From Fodinibius roseus (GTDB lineage Bacteria > Bacteroidota > Rhodothermia > Balneolales > Balneolaceae): DNA of 64,000 nucleotides. Both the position numbers and the translations under genes were made by a program. This document shows positions 4,405-59,580 of the stretch, piece after piece. Within the stretch, counting starts at the first letter, position 1, and every line of letters begins with the position of its first letter. Location of the stretch: NCBI RefSeq assembly GCF_900129315.1, contig NZ_FQUS01000005.1, positions 1 through 64,000 of the forward strand, given 5' to 3'. Under the pieces are notes generated by a model. It worked only from the letters and a program-made list of their open reading frames with translations. It ran no database searches and was not told the DNA's origin.

Positions 4405-4893
4405 AAGTGCCGAAAACGTATTGCGTGCTATGTATTTAGCGGTTAGAAGTCAGTACCGCCCGCATTACGGAATAGGTGATACTCATGGAATGGAAAACAA
4501 AAAGGCAAAAGATATTAATTATATTTAGAAATGGCACATTGAAGGTTTGGGATAGAGAAAAAGTTTCCCATAATCAGTGACAAGTGACCAAATTAATCCT
4601 TGACTGGAAAAAAAAACGACACCCTCTGATAGCTGATAGGGCATTTATATTTTAAAATATTTGGTATTGATTCTGACGGAGTGATTGTCTAATGTTGATG
4701 TAATGAAAGACTCGGTTTCAGTCATTCTTTTAGAAGTCTTTGCAAAACCGTTCCTTTGGTCAATTTCGGCGTTATCGGTTGGTTGAAATCCTCAGATATG
4801 GGCAATATGCTGCGAGGGCAACCTCCCACTGGCCTTGACTTTGAACAGAATACCTGGTTTTCAAAGACTTCATTTAAATAAAATCTACGCTCT
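4405..4893. other. intergenic region with heptamer traces and palindromic element copy 2
   Basis: No gene is supported here. The region holds a short AGTGAC-type 7-bp duplication near 4575-4590, two CTGATAG heptamers at about 4627-4640 preceded by a stretch resembling the flank of the large heptamer array at 23.1 kb, and palindromic element copy 2. Confidence 0.6.
4733..4871 (+). repeat. long palindromic intergenic element, copy 2
   Basis: The left end is AAGTCTTTGCAAAACCG and the right end is CCTGGTTTTCAAAGACTT; these arms pair almost perfectly. The block TTTGGTCAAT follows the left arm as in other copies. It ends 22 nt before the phoH-like start codon. It is the only upstream copy whose orientation relative to the gene differs from the other six. 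Confidence 0.8.
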
Positions 4894-12676: not shown

Positions 12677-13090
12677 GTTGTTTTTCTTATCTCTTGATTT
12701 TTTGTCTGGTGGTCCCGATAGCCGCGGGATATCGTACTCTCCTGAATTAAAGGGATGAAATAGCTGTCAACCATTCCACCCCGGAAGGATGCCTGGGTAC
12801 GCTCTTTTTCAATGGTATCAACGTTTGGTTTTCAAATGTTCTGTAAGTAAGACCGTTTCGGAGGTGAATCCTTACAAAATTTTTTCATTTTTTTTATTTA
12901 TCATGTAGGGAGCTTTGAAACACCGGGAATTTGATCATGATCGATATCAAAGCCTGAGTGCATTCAAAAACCGGAACATATAGGGTATATGTGATGGATG
13001 TAAGGATGTTGAATGTGCGAACATGCAGATAGTGGCCAAAAAACGGTTTTGCAAAGCTCTCACGTAATCTGTCTCAAAAACAACCATTGT
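12677..13090. other. intergenic region with palindromic element copy 3
   Basis: This divergent spacer lies between the LTD protein and a small unknown gene. Apart from copy 3 it holds a segment near 12820-12842 (GGTTTTCAAATGTTCTG) that may be a decayed right end of another copy. No gene or RNA is recognised. Confidence 0.5.
12909..13061 (-). repeat. long palindromic intergenic element, copy 3
   Basis: It reads in reverse relative to copies 1, 2 and 4. Its ends are AGCTTTGAAACACCGG and CGGTTTTGCAAAGCT. The inner arms TGCATTCAAAAACC and ATGTTGAATGTGC pair with each other. It ends 29 nt before the ATG of the downstream gene, with the CGGTTTTGCAAAGC end nearest the gene. Confidence 0.85.
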
Positions 13091-13492
13091 ATGAATACTG
13101 GTATTCGCACTGTTCCTTTTGAAATCACAGGTGTATCTCACGGGTTAAAGGAAGTGAAGGGACTTGTTAAGCTGAATGAGGAGGGGTTTGAACTGGAATA
13201 TACGTTGCAGGACAGTTTTGTAGGGGTCTTCAAATCGGACATGAAGTCGACGATCATCCCGTATGGGAATCTGGAAGAGATTATGTTTGAAAAAGGGTGG
13301 TTCAGCGGTAAGATCATCCTGGAGGGGACCTCAATGAATGCCTTCAGCGGGCTGCCGGGCACGGAGCCGGGCAGCCGTACGCTGAAGATAAACCGAAAGC
13401 ACCGCGATGAGGCCGAAAAGCTGGTTTCACACGCGCGCATGCGACTTTCCGAGTACCGGCTTGACGCGATGGAAGGGGAGGGCGAATTCTGA
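13091..13492 (+). CDS. small uncharacterised protein, possibly PH-like
   Basis: I do not recognise the family. From the ATG at 13091 it is 133 residues. It has no signal peptide or membrane segment, and shows alternating beta strands (VKLNEEGFELEYTLQD, GWFSGKIILEG), then a strand, RTLKINRKHR, and a charged C-terminal helix (DEAEKLVSHARMRLSEY). This order, about seven strands followed by one helix, resembles bacterial PH-like domains; that is only an inference. An open frame continues upstream to 13013, but that part is palindromic element sequence, so the later start is chosen. Confidence 0.65.
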   Translation: MNTGIRTVPFEITGVSHGLKEVKGLVKLNEEGFELEYTLQDSFVGVFKSDMKSTIIPYGNLEEIMFEKGWFSGKIILEGTSMNAFSGLPGTEPGSRTLKINRKHRDEAEKLVSHARMRLSEYRLDAMEGEGEF

Positions 13493-20157: not shown

Positions 20158-20191
20158 AAGTATTGGGGGTTTAGATGATAATTAACATAAA

Positions 20192-20323
20192 GAAGGCTTT
20201 GGAAAATTGTTCATTTAGCCAACCGCTGCATGTTCGCGCATTCAACATCCTCACATATACCTTGCAGGGGGGATTCACTCAGCCTTTGATATTGACTATA
20301 GTTCCCGGTTTTACAAAGCCTTT
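20192..20323 (+). repeat. long palindromic intergenic element, copy 4
   Basis: The ends are AGGCTTTGGAAAATTG and CCGGTTTTACAAAGCCT. The core has the family block GCATGTTCGCGCATTCAACA. It fills nearly all of the nfeD-SPFH gap within an apparent minus-strand operon. The end nearest the SPFH start codon (34 bp) is the left arm, as for most other upstream copies. Confidence 0.85.
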
Positions 20324-20349
20324 ATAAAATGGGTAACTATTGTATTAGC

Positions 20350-23141: not shown

Positions 23142-23220
23142 CTGATAGCTGATAGCTGATAGCTGATAGCTGATAGCTGATAGCTGATAGCTGATAGCTG
23201 ATAGCTGATAGCTGATAGCT
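23142..23220. repeat. CTGATAG heptamer tandem array
   Basis: Seventy-nine bases are made of uninterrupted CTGATAG units, about 11.3 copies. The array ends three bases before the DUF502 stop codon and lies between two convergent genes. Because 7 is not a multiple of 3, any frame through it reads as a 7-residue repeat, giving a spurious QLSAISY peptide on the minus strand. Heptamer arrays of this kind are known in other bacteria, notably cyanobacteria. Confidence 0.97.
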
Positions 23221-23223
23221 GGA

Positions 23224-23796
23224 TCATGAAGCTTCTATGTTCGATATTCCGCCGGAAATAACATATTTCATGGCATCGGCAGAGTCGAGTTCTAAAGGAC
23301 GCACATTCTCGGAAGGGACGAAGTAAAGGTTGCCCGAGAAGTTGTATGAATGCGGGCAATACACCGCAACCCTGCCCGTAATCCCCAGGTCAGACAGGTC
23401 TTCCTGCGTGATAAATCCCATCCGTTGTACGGACATACCTCCGAAATCAACCACCACGGGCTTATTAAAGCGTTTTTTATCGCCAACGAATGCTTCCGTC
23501 AAGTCCTTGAGGGCGGTGTAAATGATCTTGATAATGGGGACCCGCTTTACCAGGTCCTCAAAATAGGTTACAAGGGGGCGCGTAAACGTGAGCGAAAAAA
23601 TATAGCCGATCACGGCAATACCCAGGAAGACCGTGATTATTCCCAGTCCCGGTATGTCAACGCTCAGCCACTGAAACAGCAGGTCGTTGAGCACATTGTT
23701 TGACCAGACGACGGCTGAATAGATGATATAAGCAGTGGCTCCGAGGGGGAAGACCAACAGCAGGCCACGGAAAAAATTGTTCAAGAGGGGACGCAT
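23224..23796 (-). CDS. DUF502 family membrane protein
   Basis: This 190-residue protein has two N-terminal membrane segments (FFRGLLLVFPLGATAYIIYSAVVW and IPGLGIITVFLGIAVIGYIFS, given here by their ends FFRG, VVW, IPGL and IFS) and a soluble C-terminal domain. The family core VKRVPIIKIIYTALKDLTEA is clear, as is the late block GITGRVAVYCPHSYNFSGNLYFVP. DUF502 proteins are widespread in bacteria and in chloroplasts (LIKE-COV); no biochemical function is established. It is divergent from alaS, and its 3' end abuts the heptamer array. Confidence 0.9.
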   Translation of the reverse strand: MRPLLNNFFRGLLLVFPLGATAYIIYSAVVWSNNVLNDLLFQWLSVDIPGLGIITVFLGIAVIGYIFSLTFTRPLVTYFEDLVKRVPIIKIIYTALKDLTEAFVGDKKRFNKPVVVDFGGMSVQRMGFITQEDLSDLGITGRVAVYCPHSYNFSGNLYFVPSENVRPLELDSADAMKYVISGGISNIEAS

Positions 23797-26766: not shown

Positions 26767-27876
26767 ATGGCTGATAAAAAGAAAGAAGAACAAGAAGAAG
26801 TACAGTTTACACCCTCTGGGACGGGGATTCGTACCAACGGACAGGTGGTCCGAAGTACGGAATTACCGTCGCCTACGCGGAAAAAACACAAGTCGCTCGG
26901 TCTTTCGGAAGAGGACGTCGTGGATATGTTTGAACTGATGTATCTGCAGCGCCGTTTCGAGGAGCGGGCCATGCAGATGTACCAGAAAGGAAAATTCGGG
27001 GGATTCCTTCATCTCTATATGGGGCAGGAAGCCATTTCTACGGGTACCGCCTATGCCCTGAATGATGACGATGATATTATTACGGCCTATCGCGATCATG
27101 GCTGGGGACTGGTCCGCGGCGTGTCGCCCAAAGCGGGAATGGCCGAACTGTACGGGAAGGTTACCGGCTGCTCGCAAGGCAAGGGGGGATCTATGCACTT
27201 CGCCAATGTAAAGGATCATTTTTGGGGAGGGCATGGAATTGTCGGTGGCAGTATTCCGCTGGGTGGAGGTATTGCTTTGGCTAACAAGTATAAGCAGAAC
27301 GGCCGTGTTACCGCTTCTTTTTTGGGGGATGGGGCCGTGGACCAGGGCGTCTTGCATGAGACCATGAATATGAGTCAGAACTGGAATCTGCCCTGTATCT
27401 TTGCAGTGGAGAATAACGGCTATGCGATGGGGACCGCCGTACATCGCCACTCGGTGGGCGAATTGGTGGACCGCGCCAAAGGATTTGATATGAAAAGTGC
27501 GGTGATCAACGGGATGGATGTGTTTACCGTCTATGAAAAGATGAAAGAAGTCGCCGAGGATGTCCGGGAGCATTCCAATCCCTGGTTTTTGGAGATCCGT
27601 ACCTATCGCTACCGGGGACACTCAATGTCGGATCCGATGAAATATCGAACCAAAGATGAGCTCAGGGAATATGAGGAGCTTGACCCGATCGAACGCATTA
27701 AAGGCTACCTGCTGGACAACGATATAATTGATGAGGATAAGGTCGAGGATATCCAGGATTCGGTGGAAGATACGGTTATGGAGGCTATCGATTTTGCCGA
27801 GGAGAGTGATTTTCCCGACAAGAGTCATTTATATAAAGATGTGTTTGTGGAAGATGACTATCCGTTTCATACGTAA
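26767..27876 (+). CDS. pdhA: pyruvate dehydrogenase E1 component, alpha subunit
   Basis: This is the thiamine-diphosphate-dependent E1 alpha subunit, 369 residues. The ThDP motif runs from GDGA (187-190) to ENN (215-217), with GDGAVDQGVLHETMN between. The phosphorylation-loop block YRYRGHSMSDP is near 280, and MGQEAI and the HGIVGGSIPLGGG segment are typical. The first 40 residues are a charged, low-complexity extension not usual in the family. It forms a heterotetramer with the PdhB encoded downstream. The 223-bp gap to pdhB holds palindromic element copy 5. Pyruvate is favoured over branched-chain substrates from motif details. Confidence 0.93.
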   Translation: MADKKKEEQEEVQFTPSGTGIRTNGQVVRSTELPSPTRKKHKSLGLSEEDVVDMFELMYLQRRFEERAMQMYQKGKFGGFLHLYMGQEAISTGTAYALNDDDDIITAYRDHGWGLVRGVSPKAGMAELYGKVTGCSQGKGGSMHFANVKDHFWGGHGIVGGSIPLGGGIALANKYKQNGRVTASFLGDGAVDQGVLHETMNMSQNWNLPCIFAVENNGYAMGTAVHRHSVGELVDRAKGFDMKSAVINGMDVFTVYEKMKEVAEDVREHSNPWFLEIRTYRYRGHSMSDPMKYRTKDELREYEELDPIERIKGYLLDNDIIDEDKVEDIQDSVEDTVMEAIDFAEESDFPDKSHLYKDVFVEDDYPFHT

Positions 27877-27915
27877 TTGAAATTCGGAAGTTCTTTTTTC
27901 AGTAACAGCTGATTA

Positions 27916-28057
27916 GAGGGATTTGAAAAACCGGGAATGTTGATCAATATCAACCCCTGAACGGATTCAAAACTTCCGCATATATTAAGGCACAGGTACG
28001 CATGTTGAATGCGCGGAAATACAGGTATTGGCCAAAAGAACGGTTTTACAAAGCTCT
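27916..28057 (-). repeat. long palindromic intergenic element, copy 5
   Basis: This is one of the best-preserved copies. Its ends are AGGGATTTGAAAAACCGG and CGGTTTTACAAAGCTCTT. Next to the ends, TTGATCAATATCAACC and ATTGGCCAAAAGAACGG carry the conserved inner pairing blocks. It lies between pdhA and pdhB, 42 nt before the pdhB start codon, so it must be transcribed if these genes are one operon. Confidence 0.9.
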
Positions 28058-28099
28058 TGATTAAATATATCTAAAAAATCTATTACTAAACTTGAAAAT

Positions 28100-29083
28100 A
28101 TGGCTGAACTACAATTCAGAGAAGCAATACGGGCTGCCATTGATGAAGAGATGCAGCAGGATTCAACTATTTTTGTAATGGGCGAGGAAGTGGCTGAATA
28201 TGATGGCGCATATAAGGTTACGGAGGGACTCCTTGATAAATACGGTCCCAAACGAATGATTGATACACCTATTTCCGAGCTGGGGTTTGCCGGAATGGGG
28301 GTCGGGGCAGCGATGAATGGATTGCGTCCCATCGTGGAGTTCATGACGTTTAATTTTGCGGTGTTAGCGGCAGACCAGATTCTCAATCACGCCTCCAAAA
28401 TAAGGTATATGACCGGGGGACAGGTTAAAATTCCTATCGTATTTCGGGGTCCGAACGCATCGGCGGGACAGCTGAGTGCGACGCACTCTGTATCCTATGA
28501 TTCAATGTATGCCCACTTTCCCGGTCTGAAAGTGATTTATACATCTGAGCCGGAGGATGCCAAGGGATTATTGAAATCCGCCATCCGTGATGATAATCCC
28601 GTACTGTTTATGGAATCGGAGCAGATGTACGGCTTGAAAGGGGAAGTATCCGATGAGGAGGACTTTACCATTCCGATCGGTAAGGCCAAAGTAAAGCGGG
28701 AAGGTAGTGATGTCACCGTGGTTGCCCACGGGAAGATGTATCATGTTGCCAAACAGGCTGCCAGTCAGCTGGAAAAGGAGGACGTGGACATAGAGATTCT
28801 CGATCCGCGTACGGTCAAACCCCTGGATATCGAAGCCATTGTGAAGTCAGTCAAAAAGACGAATCGTTGTGTAATCGTGGACGAAGCACATCCGTTTGGC
28901 GGACTGGCGGCGGAAGTGGGATATTTGATACAGCGCGAGGCATTTGACTATTTGGATGCCCCTGTGCAACGGGTTACTTTACCGGATACCAGCGCGCCTT
29001 TTGCTAAAAATCTTTTTGATGAGTGGCTACCCGGCGCCAATGATGTTATTGAAGCGGTTAATACCGTCACCTATCGCAAGTAA
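28100..29083 (+). CDS. pdhB: pyruvate dehydrogenase E1 component, beta subunit
   Basis: At 327 residues this matches the E1 beta family closely. The N-terminal block LQFREAIRAAIDEEM, FVMGEEVAEYDGAYKVT and GFAGMGVGAAMNGLRPIVEFM are diagnostic, and the transketolase C-terminal domain contains VDIEILDPRTVKPLD and DEAHPFGGLAAEVG. E1 beta completes the ThDP active site with PdhA. It is followed 29 bp later by the E2 gene. No stop-start overlap with pdhA exists because of the element upstream, which may let pdhB be translated independently. Confidence 0.95.
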   Translation: MAELQFREAIRAAIDEEMQQDSTIFVMGEEVAEYDGAYKVTEGLLDKYGPKRMIDTPISELGFAGMGVGAAMNGLRPIVEFMTFNFAVLAADQILNHASKIRYMTGGQVKIPIVFRGPNASAGQLSATHSVSYDSMYAHFPGLKVIYTSEPEDAKGLLKSAIRDDNPVLFMESEQMYGLKGEVSDEEDFTIPIGKAKVKREGSDVTVVAHGKMYHVAKQAASQLEKEDVDIEILDPRTVKPLDIEAIVKSVKKTNRCVIVDEAHPFGGLAAEVGYLIQREAFDYLDAPVQRVTLPDTSAPFAKNLFDEWLPGANDVIEAVNTVTYRK

Positions 29084-29112: not shown

Positions 29113-30387
29113 ATGGCAATTAAGGTTGAAATGCCCAAGTTGAGCGATACCATGGAAGAAGGGGTCATCGCCAAGTGGAATGTAGAGGAAGGAGACAATG
29201 TGGAATCCGGCGATATCATAGCCGAGGTCGAGACCGACAAGGCTACGATGGAGGTTGAAGTTTTTGACGCCGGGACCATTCTGAAAATACTTGCCAGTGA
29301 AGGTGATGCGGTGCCGTTGGGACAGATAATGGCTGTTATTGGCGAAGAAGGGGAAGACATCAGTGATATCCTCAAGGAGGCTGAATCCGGATCTGAAAGT
29401 ACTTCCGGCGCGGGAAAAGAGGGTACCGACCAGAAGGAGCAGGAAAAGGAAACCCCGGAGAAAGAAAAGGATGACGATTACGATCCTGTTTTTGAGGATT
29501 CTGACCAGGGGCAGGGGAAAGCTCCGGCTTCGAAAGATACGGCCGGAAACGGCCGGATCAAGGCATCGCCGCTGGCCCGAAGGATGGCCGAAGAGGAAGG
29601 AATTACCCTTGCCAATGTGGAGGGGAGTGGCCCGCAGGGACGGATCATTAAGCGGGATATCGAAAGTTACGAACCTGCCGAAGCGCCGGCTGCGGCAACC
29701 GTTTCGCGCGAGGATAAAGAGGTTCGGGTCTCCCAGATGCGCAAAACCATTGCACGCCGGCTTTCAGAAAGCAAGTTCAGCAACCCGCATTATTATGAGA
29801 CCATATCGGTGGATATGCAAGCGGTGTGGGATGCCCGTAAACAGATTAATGAAGTCAGCGATACAAAGATAAGCTTTAACGATATTGTGGTTAAAGCCTG
29901 TGCCGCCGCATTGCGCAAGCATCCGGAAATCAACAGCTCCTGGCACGGAGATAAGATCGTCCAGCACGGCGATGTCAATATTGCAGTGGCGGTAGCCGTT
30001 GATGAAGGACTGCTGACACCGGTTATCAATAATACGGATCAAAAAGGGCTGGAACAGCTGCAAATTGAAACCAGAGAGCTGGCTGAAAAAGCGCGGGAAC
30101 GCAAACTGCAGCCCGAAGAGATGGAGGGCAGTACCTTCACTATCAGTAACCTGGGTATGTTCGGCATCGAAGAATTCACGGCTATTATCAATCCGCCGAA
30201 TGCCTGTATTCTGGCCGTGGGCGCTATCAAAGAGATACCTGTCGTTGAAGACGGAGAAGTGGTGCCCGGCAAGCGGATGAAGATGACGCTCTCAAGCGAT
30301 CACCGTATTGTGGACGGAGCCATGGCTGCGCAGTTTCTGAACACCCTCAGGCAGATGCTGGAGAACCCGCTGGGTATCGTGCTGTAG
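29113..30387 (+). CDS. pdhC: pyruvate dehydrogenase E2, dihydrolipoamide acetyltransferase
   Basis: The 424-residue E2 subunit has one lipoyl domain (1-77) with the lipoylated lysine K43 in ETDKATMEVE. A charged linker (80-148) follows, then a peripheral subunit-binding domain (151-186, ASPLARRMAEE) and the catalytic acetyltransferase domain (about 200-424). The catalytic histidine is H397 in SSDHRIVDGA. It transfers the acetyl group to CoA and forms the core of the complex. The E3 (lipoamide dehydrogenase) gene is not in the window, so it must be elsewhere. Copy 6 of the palindromic element and a terminator follow. Confidence 0.95.
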   Translation: MAIKVEMPKLSDTMEEGVIAKWNVEEGDNVESGDIIAEVETDKATMEVEVFDAGTILKILASEGDAVPLGQIMAVIGEEGEDISDILKEAESGSESTSGAGKEGTDQKEQEKETPEKEKDDDYDPVFEDSDQGQGKAPASKDTAGNGRIKASPLARRMAEEEGITLANVEGSGPQGRIIKRDIESYEPAEAPAAATVSREDKEVRVSQMRKTIARRLSESKFSNPHYYETISVDMQAVWDARKQINEVSDTKISFNDIVVKACAAALRKHPEINSSWHGDKIVQHGDVNIAVAVAVDEGLLTPVINNTDQKGLEQLQIETRELAEKARERKLQPEEMEGSTFTISNLGMFGIEEFTAIINPPNACILAVGAIKEIPVVEDGEVVPGKRMKMTLSSDHRIVDGAMAAQFLNTLRQMLENPLGIVL

Positions 30388-30417
30388 CTTATGATGCATG
30401 ACAGAATAGCTATAAGA

Positions 30418-30552
30418 ACCCTTTGAAAAACCAGGAACTTCAGTCAATATCAACCTGAACGCATTCAAAACCACCGCCTAAATTCAGGCACAGGTAAGGA
30501 ATCGGTATGGACGAAAGTGCAGAGATTGGCCAAAAGAACTATTTTCAAAGGT
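30418..30552 (-). repeat. long palindromic intergenic element, copy 6
   Basis: Its ends are CCCTTTGAAAAACCAGG and ATTGGCCAAAAGAAC followed by TATTTTCAAAGG. It begins 30 bp after the pdhC stop and stands just before a hairpin terminator. One inner arm has diverged. With copy 1, it is one of only two copies not placed directly upstream of a gene. Confidence 0.8.
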
Positions 30553-30556
30553 GCTA

Positions 30557-30596
30557 TAAAAGGTTCTGGGTCGTAAGATCCAGTACCTTTTTTTAT
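30557..30596 (+). terminator. terminator of the pdh genes
   Basis: The arms around AGGTTCTGGGTC and GATCCAGTACCT pair with two mismatches around a 4-nt loop (GTAA), followed by a run of seven T within TTTTTTTATTTTA. It closes the pdhA-pdhB-pdhC unit. Confidence 0.75.
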
Positions 30597-38708: not shown

Positions 38709-39268
38709 GAAAAGAAATAAGGTTCTCAGAAGAGTTTATTACTATGGATAAATATAAATTTAGAAGGCTTTGCAAAACCGCTTTTTGACCCATTTTTGTA
38801 TGTTCGCGCATTCAATATTCTCACATATACCTTATGTGGGGTGGTTTTGAGTGCACTCAGAGGTTGATATTGACTAAAATTCCTGGTTTTTCAAAGTCTT
38901 CGTTTAATGACTTATAACAAAGCTGTTCAAAAAAAAGTATATGTCGCCCTCAAAAGTAACAATTATGTAAGATAAATGGACGTCCAAATCCTGGATGCCC
39001 AATAATACCATTCATTCTTACAAATTTGAAATACAGAGGTTCCGGACGGTAACAAGAGGGGCTTGTATCGGAGAGCAGCTCCCTGATCTGCTTGGCAAAA
39101 AACCCGCTGTACGTTCAGGTTCTCTTCACCCTTAAAAACAGGTTCAGAAATTATATAATGGATTGCGATTTGGCACGTTAAAAAAGAAAAGTAAAAAATA
39201 ATGATCAGACTGGCTTATTTGTACAACATTGCTTTATTTAAATAAGAACCGTTGATTGATGCGCGGCT
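38709..39268. other. divergent intergenic region with palindromic element copy 7
   Basis: Besides copy 7 (38763-38901), about 360 bp up to the next gene contain AT-rich sequence and a block near 39050-39145 without a supported frame. No RNA gene is recognised. Confidence 0.5.
38763..38901 (+). repeat. long palindromic intergenic element, copy 7
   Basis: The ends are AAGGCTTTGCAAAACCG and CCTGGTTTTTCAAAGTCTT. The core has GTATGTTCGCGCATTCAAT on the left and TTTTGAGTGCACTCAGAGG on the right, which pair. It stands 54 bp upstream of the lipoprotein start codon (minus strand), with the left arm nearest that gene. Confidence 0.9.
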
Positions 39269-54684: not shown

Positions 54685-55000
54685 TTTTTACTATGGGTAA
54701 TTTAAAAACAACCTTACTGTAGGTTTTGCAAAACCGTTCTTTTGGTCAATTGCCGTATGTTTATATGTATTCAACATCCTCACAAATGCTTTCTATGCTG
54801 TGGTGTTGAATTCGCCCCGTGGTTGATCTTGATTAAAGTTCCTGGTTCAAAAAAACTCTCTTGCTAATGTGAACATATTTATTCGGTGAACATTAATCAA
54901 AACAATCTTTTATCTGAGATAATAGAATACCTTTTATACTCAGAACCCAAACGGGAACTCAGATTTCTTTTCCCAGCATATAAATTTCCTACAATGTTAA
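54685..55000. other. intergenic region with palindromic element copy 8
   Basis: Copy 8 fills the left half. The right half, up to the DUF5103 stop codon, is AT-rich with no gene recognised. Confidence 0.5.
54719..54862 (+). repeat. long palindromic intergenic element, copy 8
   Basis: The ends are AGGTTTTGCAAAACCG and CCTGGTTCAAAAAAACT. It keeps TTCTTTTGGTCAATTGCC next to the left arm and TTGATCTTGATTAAAGTTCC next to the right. The left arm is nearest the sulfotransferase start codon, 34 bp away. Its presence beside an acquired gene shows the family reaches transferred DNA. Confidence 0.85.
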
Positions 55001-59017: not shown

Positions 59018-59067
59018 CAGCAAAGTTTACAAAAAAGTAGTGAAGCATTAACCCGAATTATGTAGAC

Positions 59068-59206
59068 GAGCCCGTTGCAAAACCGTTAATTCGCCCAATC
59101 TCTGCATGTTCGCGATTTCAACATCCCCATATCGTTAACATATAGACTGCGGTTTTGAAATCGCTCAGGGTTGGTATTGAACAAGAACCGTGTTTTCAAA
59201 GCCCTC
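59068..59206 (+). repeat. long palindromic intergenic element, copy 9
   Basis: The ends are GCCCGTTGCAAAACCG and CGTGTTTTCAAAGCCC. The core has CTGCATGTTCGCGATTTCAACATC on the left (quoted in part) and GGTTTTGAAATCGCTCAGGG on the right; GCGATTTCAA and TTGAAATCGC are exact complements, a compensatory change from the GCGCATTCAA/TTGAATGCGC of other copies. It stands 50 bp upstream of ccmB. Confidence 0.9.
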
Positions 59207-59580
59207 TGCAAATAACTGTTTAGCATGACTGCAAGTTTCTAAATATCAATGTTTTCAGTGTATGTTACAATAGGAGCAAAAGATTGCGTGCTGCAGCGGC
59301 TGCAACCCCTTCCGTGGGTTCCGGAACCCCCTTTCGGTCTGCGTCATCCGGAGCAGTTCTCATCCGGTTCATACCCTTTGGATCAACCTGCAAAATGACG
59401 CCTCACCCATGGCAAAGCCAAAGCATTCGGGAGTGAGAAATGTGGGTTAACAATAATTAGTTAAAGGTAAAAAAGAGCCGGCTGAAAAACGATCATTTTT
59501 CTCCATGCTTTCTATACCGGGCTGATAAGTTCTTAAAACATCCATTCAAAAAATATTATAAGATTAGCGGGGTAATGGAC

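Follow-up and report, generated by a model that had tools for sequence, protein, structure and literature searches.

The palindrome that separates pdhA from pdhB in the pyruvate dehydrogenase operon of Fodinibius roseus is quite probably a tolerated MITE that would be read through when pdhABC is transcribed. It is one of an old, non-autonomous family that would have been mobilised by an IS5-family transposase and mostly lost from operons in its antisense orientation.

The pdh locus and its two palindromes

Within the window, by which we mean the whole 64,000-nucleotide stretch of DNA that was analysed, pdhA ends at 27876 and pdhB starts at 28100, giving the spacing of 223 bp that an earlier note on this DNA had given, whereas pdhB and pdhC are separated by only 29 bp. 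The imperfect palindrome reported in the first of these gaps is 143 bp long (copy 5), and a further copy in the same orientation (copy 6) does lie, as had been described, between pdhC and a terminator-like stem. The boundaries of copy 5 were set by its terminal repeats and flanking duplication, and the remaining 80 bp of the gap consist of host spacer and a second GATTA. The features of the locus are as follows.

26767 to 27876, plus strand: pdhA, pyruvate dehydrogenase E1 alpha (TIGR03182, 3.5e-127)
27911 to 27915, no strand: left target-site duplication GATTA of copy 5 (exact 5-nt family geometry)
27916 to 28058, plus strand: MITE copy 5, 143 bp, ends GAGGGATTTGAAAAACC ... GGTTTTACAAAGCTCTT (covariance-model match 135.2 bits)
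28059 to 28063, no strand: right target-site duplication GATTA of copy 5 (exact 5-nt family geometry)
28100 to 29083, plus strand: pdhB, pyruvate dehydrogenase E1 beta (NF006667, 6e-143)
29113 to 30387, plus strand: pdhC, dihydrolipoamide acetyltransferase E2 (TIGR01349, 1.3e-138)
30416 to 30554, plus strand: MITE copy 6, 3' of pdhC, more decayed (model match 95.6 bits)
30566 to 30583, plus strand: terminator-like stem-loop 3' of copy 6, CTGGGTCGTAAGATCCAG, then a T-rich tail

Copy 6 is flanked by TATAA at 30411-30415 and 30555-30559, its right arm being one base short, and it retains 29 of the 46 consensus pairs of the family, compared with 39 of 46 in copy 5. The bracketing of pdhB-pdhC by two hairpins to which the earlier note drew attention is thus real, but because copy 6 has its own duplication and its own degree of decay, it looks like two separate insertions of one common element.

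The element proved to be common when a covariance model, derived from 38 of its copies, was run on the window and the genome: the window gave nine matches and the genome at least 150. The stretches around the copies were taken for the genome-wide analysis. The window copies outside the pdh locus are these.

1757 to 1892 (approximate ends), minus strand: MITE copy 1, second subfamily, cluster 1 (87.7 bits at 1746-1903)
4735 to 4870 (approximate ends), minus strand: MITE copy 2, second subfamily, cluster 1 (114.0 bits at 4724-4879)
12907 to 13054 (approximate ends), plus strand: MITE copy 3 (113.0 bits at 12900-13070)
20193 to 20322 (approximate ends), minus strand: MITE copy 4 (102.5 bits at 20183-20331)
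38764 to 38900 (approximate ends), minus strand: MITE copy 7 (133.1 bits at 38754-38909)
54720 to 54860 (approximate ends), minus strand: MITE copy 8 (105.6 bits at 54710-54868)
59069 to 59206 (approximate ends), minus strand: MITE copy 9 (101.9 bits at 59059-59214)

An open reading frame at 13013-13492, with no NCBIfam match, starts within copy 3; either the element supplies its start codon or the start has been misplaced. The window also holds a repeat of another kind, about a dozen head-to-tail CTGATAG heptamers at 23142-23221, adjoining the gene at 23224-23796.

Marks of transposition and the candidate parent element

The elements have the characters of MITEs: they are short (131-154 bp with a median of 140 among 101 copies), non-coding and present in high copy number, and they end in terminal inverted repeats (GAGGGCTTTGAAAAACC / GGTTTTGCAAAGCCCTC) in which each arm matches its own partner better than in shuffles. 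Across the 101 copies the 5-bp flanks match at a mean of 3.50 of 5 positions, the shuffled value being 2.12 (z 15.6), and the duplication is exact in 28 copies where 1.5 were expected, with the consensus TNNNA; duplication lengths of 3, 4 and 7 gave nothing of note in the same copies, and a length of 6 gave little. Such flank matching indicates that the family has moved by a transposition that duplicates 5 bp of its target. The outer five bases of the arms vary widely among the copies of this genome, yet they match within a copy (e.g., GAGAAC/GTTCTC and GAAGCC/GGCTTC), a pattern that template switching at quasi-palindromes could have produced, as could selection.

Which transposase would have moved these elements? 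The best candidate was found in a congener, G002, which has many 129-bp MITEs with the same ends as our family and a different core. These are young, since the 24 examined have a mean identity of 97.6% and 21 of them have exact 5-bp duplications. G002 also contains two insertion sequences of 1.28 kb with the ends GGGAGCTTTGCAGAACC and GGGGGCTTTGAATTACT and the duplications TAATA and TTAAA, one with an open 355-codon transposase frame and the other interrupted. Their transposase is a member of the IS5 family (NF033581 transpos_IS5_4, 3.5e-71, above the cut-off; DDE_Tnp_1 and DUF772). All that F. roseus has of this type of insertion sequence is a remnant with near-identical ends, which is internally deleted and has a broken frame; the outer 12 or so bases are common, with few differences, to the congener's copies (L197 and L199), the remnant (L198) and the MITEs. 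On the basis of the shared ends and duplication length, we infer that the family was moved by an IS5-family transposase of the G002 type. Other elements in G002 (L181, L182, L192 and L193) have the same GGGAGCTTTGCAAAACC end and further cores built on a TCATCCTGAATTCAGTTCAGGATCTC palindrome, which suggests that one set of ends can carry various palindromic cores.

High-copy intergenic palindromes are also what a REP-like repeat spread by a RAYT (Y1) transposase would produce, but the clear 5-bp target duplications, together with inverted ends that match an IS5-family element, make such an origin almost certainly wrong. No match to Y1_Tnp (PF01797) was found in the F. roseus genome.

Parallels can be found in other bacteria. 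The Neisseria ATR type II MITE is, like our family, non-autonomous, and has been proposed to derive from ISNme1, an IS5-family element; we liken the two by their ends only, the ISNme1 end GAGACCTTTGCAAAA (PMC4596501) being nearly the same as our family end GAGGGCTTTGCAAAACC. In Porphyromonas gingivalis the ends of the MITEs BrickBuilt and MITEPgRS match the IS5-family elements ISPg1/ISPg9 of that genome (PMC4596501), although BrickBuilt differs from our family in having a minisatellite inside, 19 copies and irregular duplications. The Chunjie MITE of Geobacter uraniireducens, to judge by the title under which it is cited (PMC10969869), lies within an operon whose structure is undisturbed, and it is by that title alone that we liken it to copy 5. 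Precedents are already known for MITEs in general, for their derivation from IS5 elements and for the presence of one inside an operon (PMC10969869, PMC4596501). A literature search brought up no account of MITEs from Fodinibius or from Balneolaceae at large, and the family described here appears to be previously undescribed.

Absence from the site in relatives

The nearest named match to pdhB, 93% identical, comes from Fodinibius salsisoli. At the four-fold-degenerate sites of pdhB, agreement with the 11 congeners searched is only 28-44%, and these must therefore be regarded as distant species. The comparison of pdhA-pdhB spacing in relatives that the earlier note had proposed gave gaps of 53-145 bp in these congeners and 15-51 bp in other Balneolaceae, and in none of those looked at was the element found. 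If the element and one GATTA are subtracted from the gap of F. roseus, 75 bp remain, which is inside the congener range. The core type of the F. roseus elements is patchy in its distribution, occurring in 20 of 92 Balneolaceae genomes and 9 of 21 genera; elsewhere in Fodinibius, G003 has one copy and G006 has three, and the 38 weak matches in G002 are the different-core element. The insertions probably postdate the split from the congeners, because the flanking duplications keep 70% identity, more than the four-fold-degenerate sites of pdhB do in comparison with those species.

Other palindromes occur in the pdh operons of relatives. The 145-bp pdhA-pdhB gap of F. salsisoli (L113 / L031) holds an unrelated GGGAGGCAATCCTCCC palindrome, and congeners G001, G005 and G009 (L116, L117 and L121) have another palindromic insert, around TTCTGAACTGAATTCAGGATGAC, in the pdhB-pdhC gap. 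From the presence of a different insert in that gap it follows that the pdh operon has received hairpins independently.

Hairpin strength and RNA processing

The palindrome of the earlier note holds up as a dispersed repeat; as a single RNA, copy 5 is unremarkable, folding at -34.7 kcal/mol with z -1.9, and z is -0.8 when the gap is folded as a whole. It is the dispersed family with its inverted ends and target duplications that is beyond chance, not the fold of copy 5. For the family consensus the folding energy is about -49 to -54 kcal/mol, and the 101 copies have 3573 Watson-Crick pairs versus 3247 with shuffled pairing (z 21.5). RNAalifold returned zero pairs for 38 copies, probably owing to gapped columns, and explicit pair counts were used instead. 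The Watson-Crick excess is due in part to the existence of subfamilies with compensated inner stems, in which the palindrome was kept while the source elements diverged. Selection on a single RNA strand should favour G-U over A-C changes. With the two consensus G-U pairs set aside, no G-U excess was present (236 G-U versus 226 A-C), and there is therefore no sign of post-insertion selection on the RNA. Additionally, hairpins in short sense spacers are weaker than those between divergent or convergent genes (mean -34.3 versus -39.5, p 0.011, at the same G+C, among 101 copies), as are those in operon-like sense spacers in a larger set (p 0.0014), although these were exploratory tests of which several were made, and the weakness is only suggestive.

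Could RNase III or RNase E cleave the pdhABC message at the element, giving pdhA and pdhBC separate stabilities? The long consensus stem and the covariation of stems among copies speak for this, as do the precedents of Correia (NEMIS) and ERIC, which resemble our family as small palindromic mobile repeats in transcripts (PMC10969869); we regard them as work-alikes for possible RNA processing and do not assign our family to them, as a search of the window at the Rfam gathering threshold gave no matches. However, copy 5 folds weakly for an element that keeps most of its consensus pairs, operon-like hairpins are weaker rather than stronger, the G-U and A-C counts are nearly equal, and the element is absent between pdhA and pdhB in relatives, so that we consider a processing site rather unlikely.

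Orientation between co-directional genes

Genes were called by codon bias and 141 copies were scored, a short spacer being one with 150 bp or less left after the element. Of these copies, 75 lie between co-directional genes, 60 in the sense and 15 in the antisense orientation (p 1.6e-7), and in short, operon-like spacers the ratio is 30 sense to 3 antisense (p 1.4e-6); both pdh copies are sense. A separate later set of 40 copies replicated the skew (20:1). When stratified by contig, the skew has a Mantel-Haenszel odds ratio of 8.3. A replication-linked orientation is made less likely by the persistence of the skew inside contigs, although neighbouring copies whose genes are opposite lie on opposite strands in only 13 cases versus 7. 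The skew was absent from the young MITEs of G002 (7:6), from the same family in four other Balneolaceae genomes (15:13) and from a smaller subfamily in F. roseus itself (6:4); the difference between F. roseus and the relatives has a p value of 0.012, and of 0.0006 in short spacers. The cores of the relatives differ from that of F. roseus, and the skew may depend on core sequence or genome.

The two orientations are not equivalent as RNA: terminator-like matches were found in 67% of antisense versus 31% of sense orientations, and the antisense consensus has a weak terminator-like stem (-6.6 to -7.6 kcal/mol) followed by GTTTTTC. Such a feature was looked for in copy 5 and was not found.

A major question is "What produced the skew?" One answer would be insertion bias, for instance through transcription-coupled transposition, with no later selection, in which case copy 5 would still be a tolerated MITE. 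That the skew tracks gene strand within contigs would fit, but the young MITEs of G002 have the same ends and no skew, the relatives have none either, and the weaker, presumably older set of copies is the more skewed (20:1 versus 40:14, Fisher p 0.053), all of which makes insertion bias unlikely and leads us to infer selection. Alternatively, an outward promoter in the element might feed pdhB-pdhC, the bias reflecting retention of useful promoters, and the IS5-type BrickBuilt MITE of P. gingivalis does have orientation-dependent promoter activity in Escherichia coli (PMC4596501). Yet a scan of the pdhA-pdhB gap for sigma-70-like promoters, a class that does not include the Bacteroidota type, gave no match, and the bias peaks in the short spacers typical of operons, which have the least need of an additional promoter; we hold a promoter to be very improbable. 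A broader reading, in which the older MITE subfamily would constitute genome-wide orientation-specific RNA elements that tune downstream operon genes, pdhBC included, strikes us as improbable.

Conclusions

Of the options the earlier note had offered for the hairpin, toleration and read-through are favoured, because the element is absent from the site in 11 congeners, the orientation ratio is 30:3, operon hairpins are somewhat weaker and there is no G-U excess; RNase processing and an internal promoter, of which the sequence gave no sign, are less likely. We propose that an IS5-family transposase acted in the past on the inverted ends of the MITE and that copy 5 would have inserted at a GATTA site of the pdhA-pdhB spacer once this lineage had parted from the Fodinibius species sampled. 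Transcription of pdhABC most probably still continues across it. Sense copies would be tolerated between co-directional genes while antisense copies, with their weakly terminator-like consensus, would have been largely purged, and a retained sense hairpin would then decay via neutral drift or mild counter-selection. Against this account speak the lack of skew in the relatives, in the G002 MITE and in the smaller F. roseus subfamily, the weakness of the terminator-like stem and its absence from copy 5, and the maintenance of the palindrome in the compensated subfamilies.

These observations provide a sequence-level account of a hairpin in a core metabolic operon and connect a Balneolaceae repeat of high copy number with an IS5-type transposition system. 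Most deserving of further attention is the orientation skew: if the 30:3 ratio does reflect purged antisense copies, then this one genome would hold a large natural experiment on the palindromes that operons tolerate.
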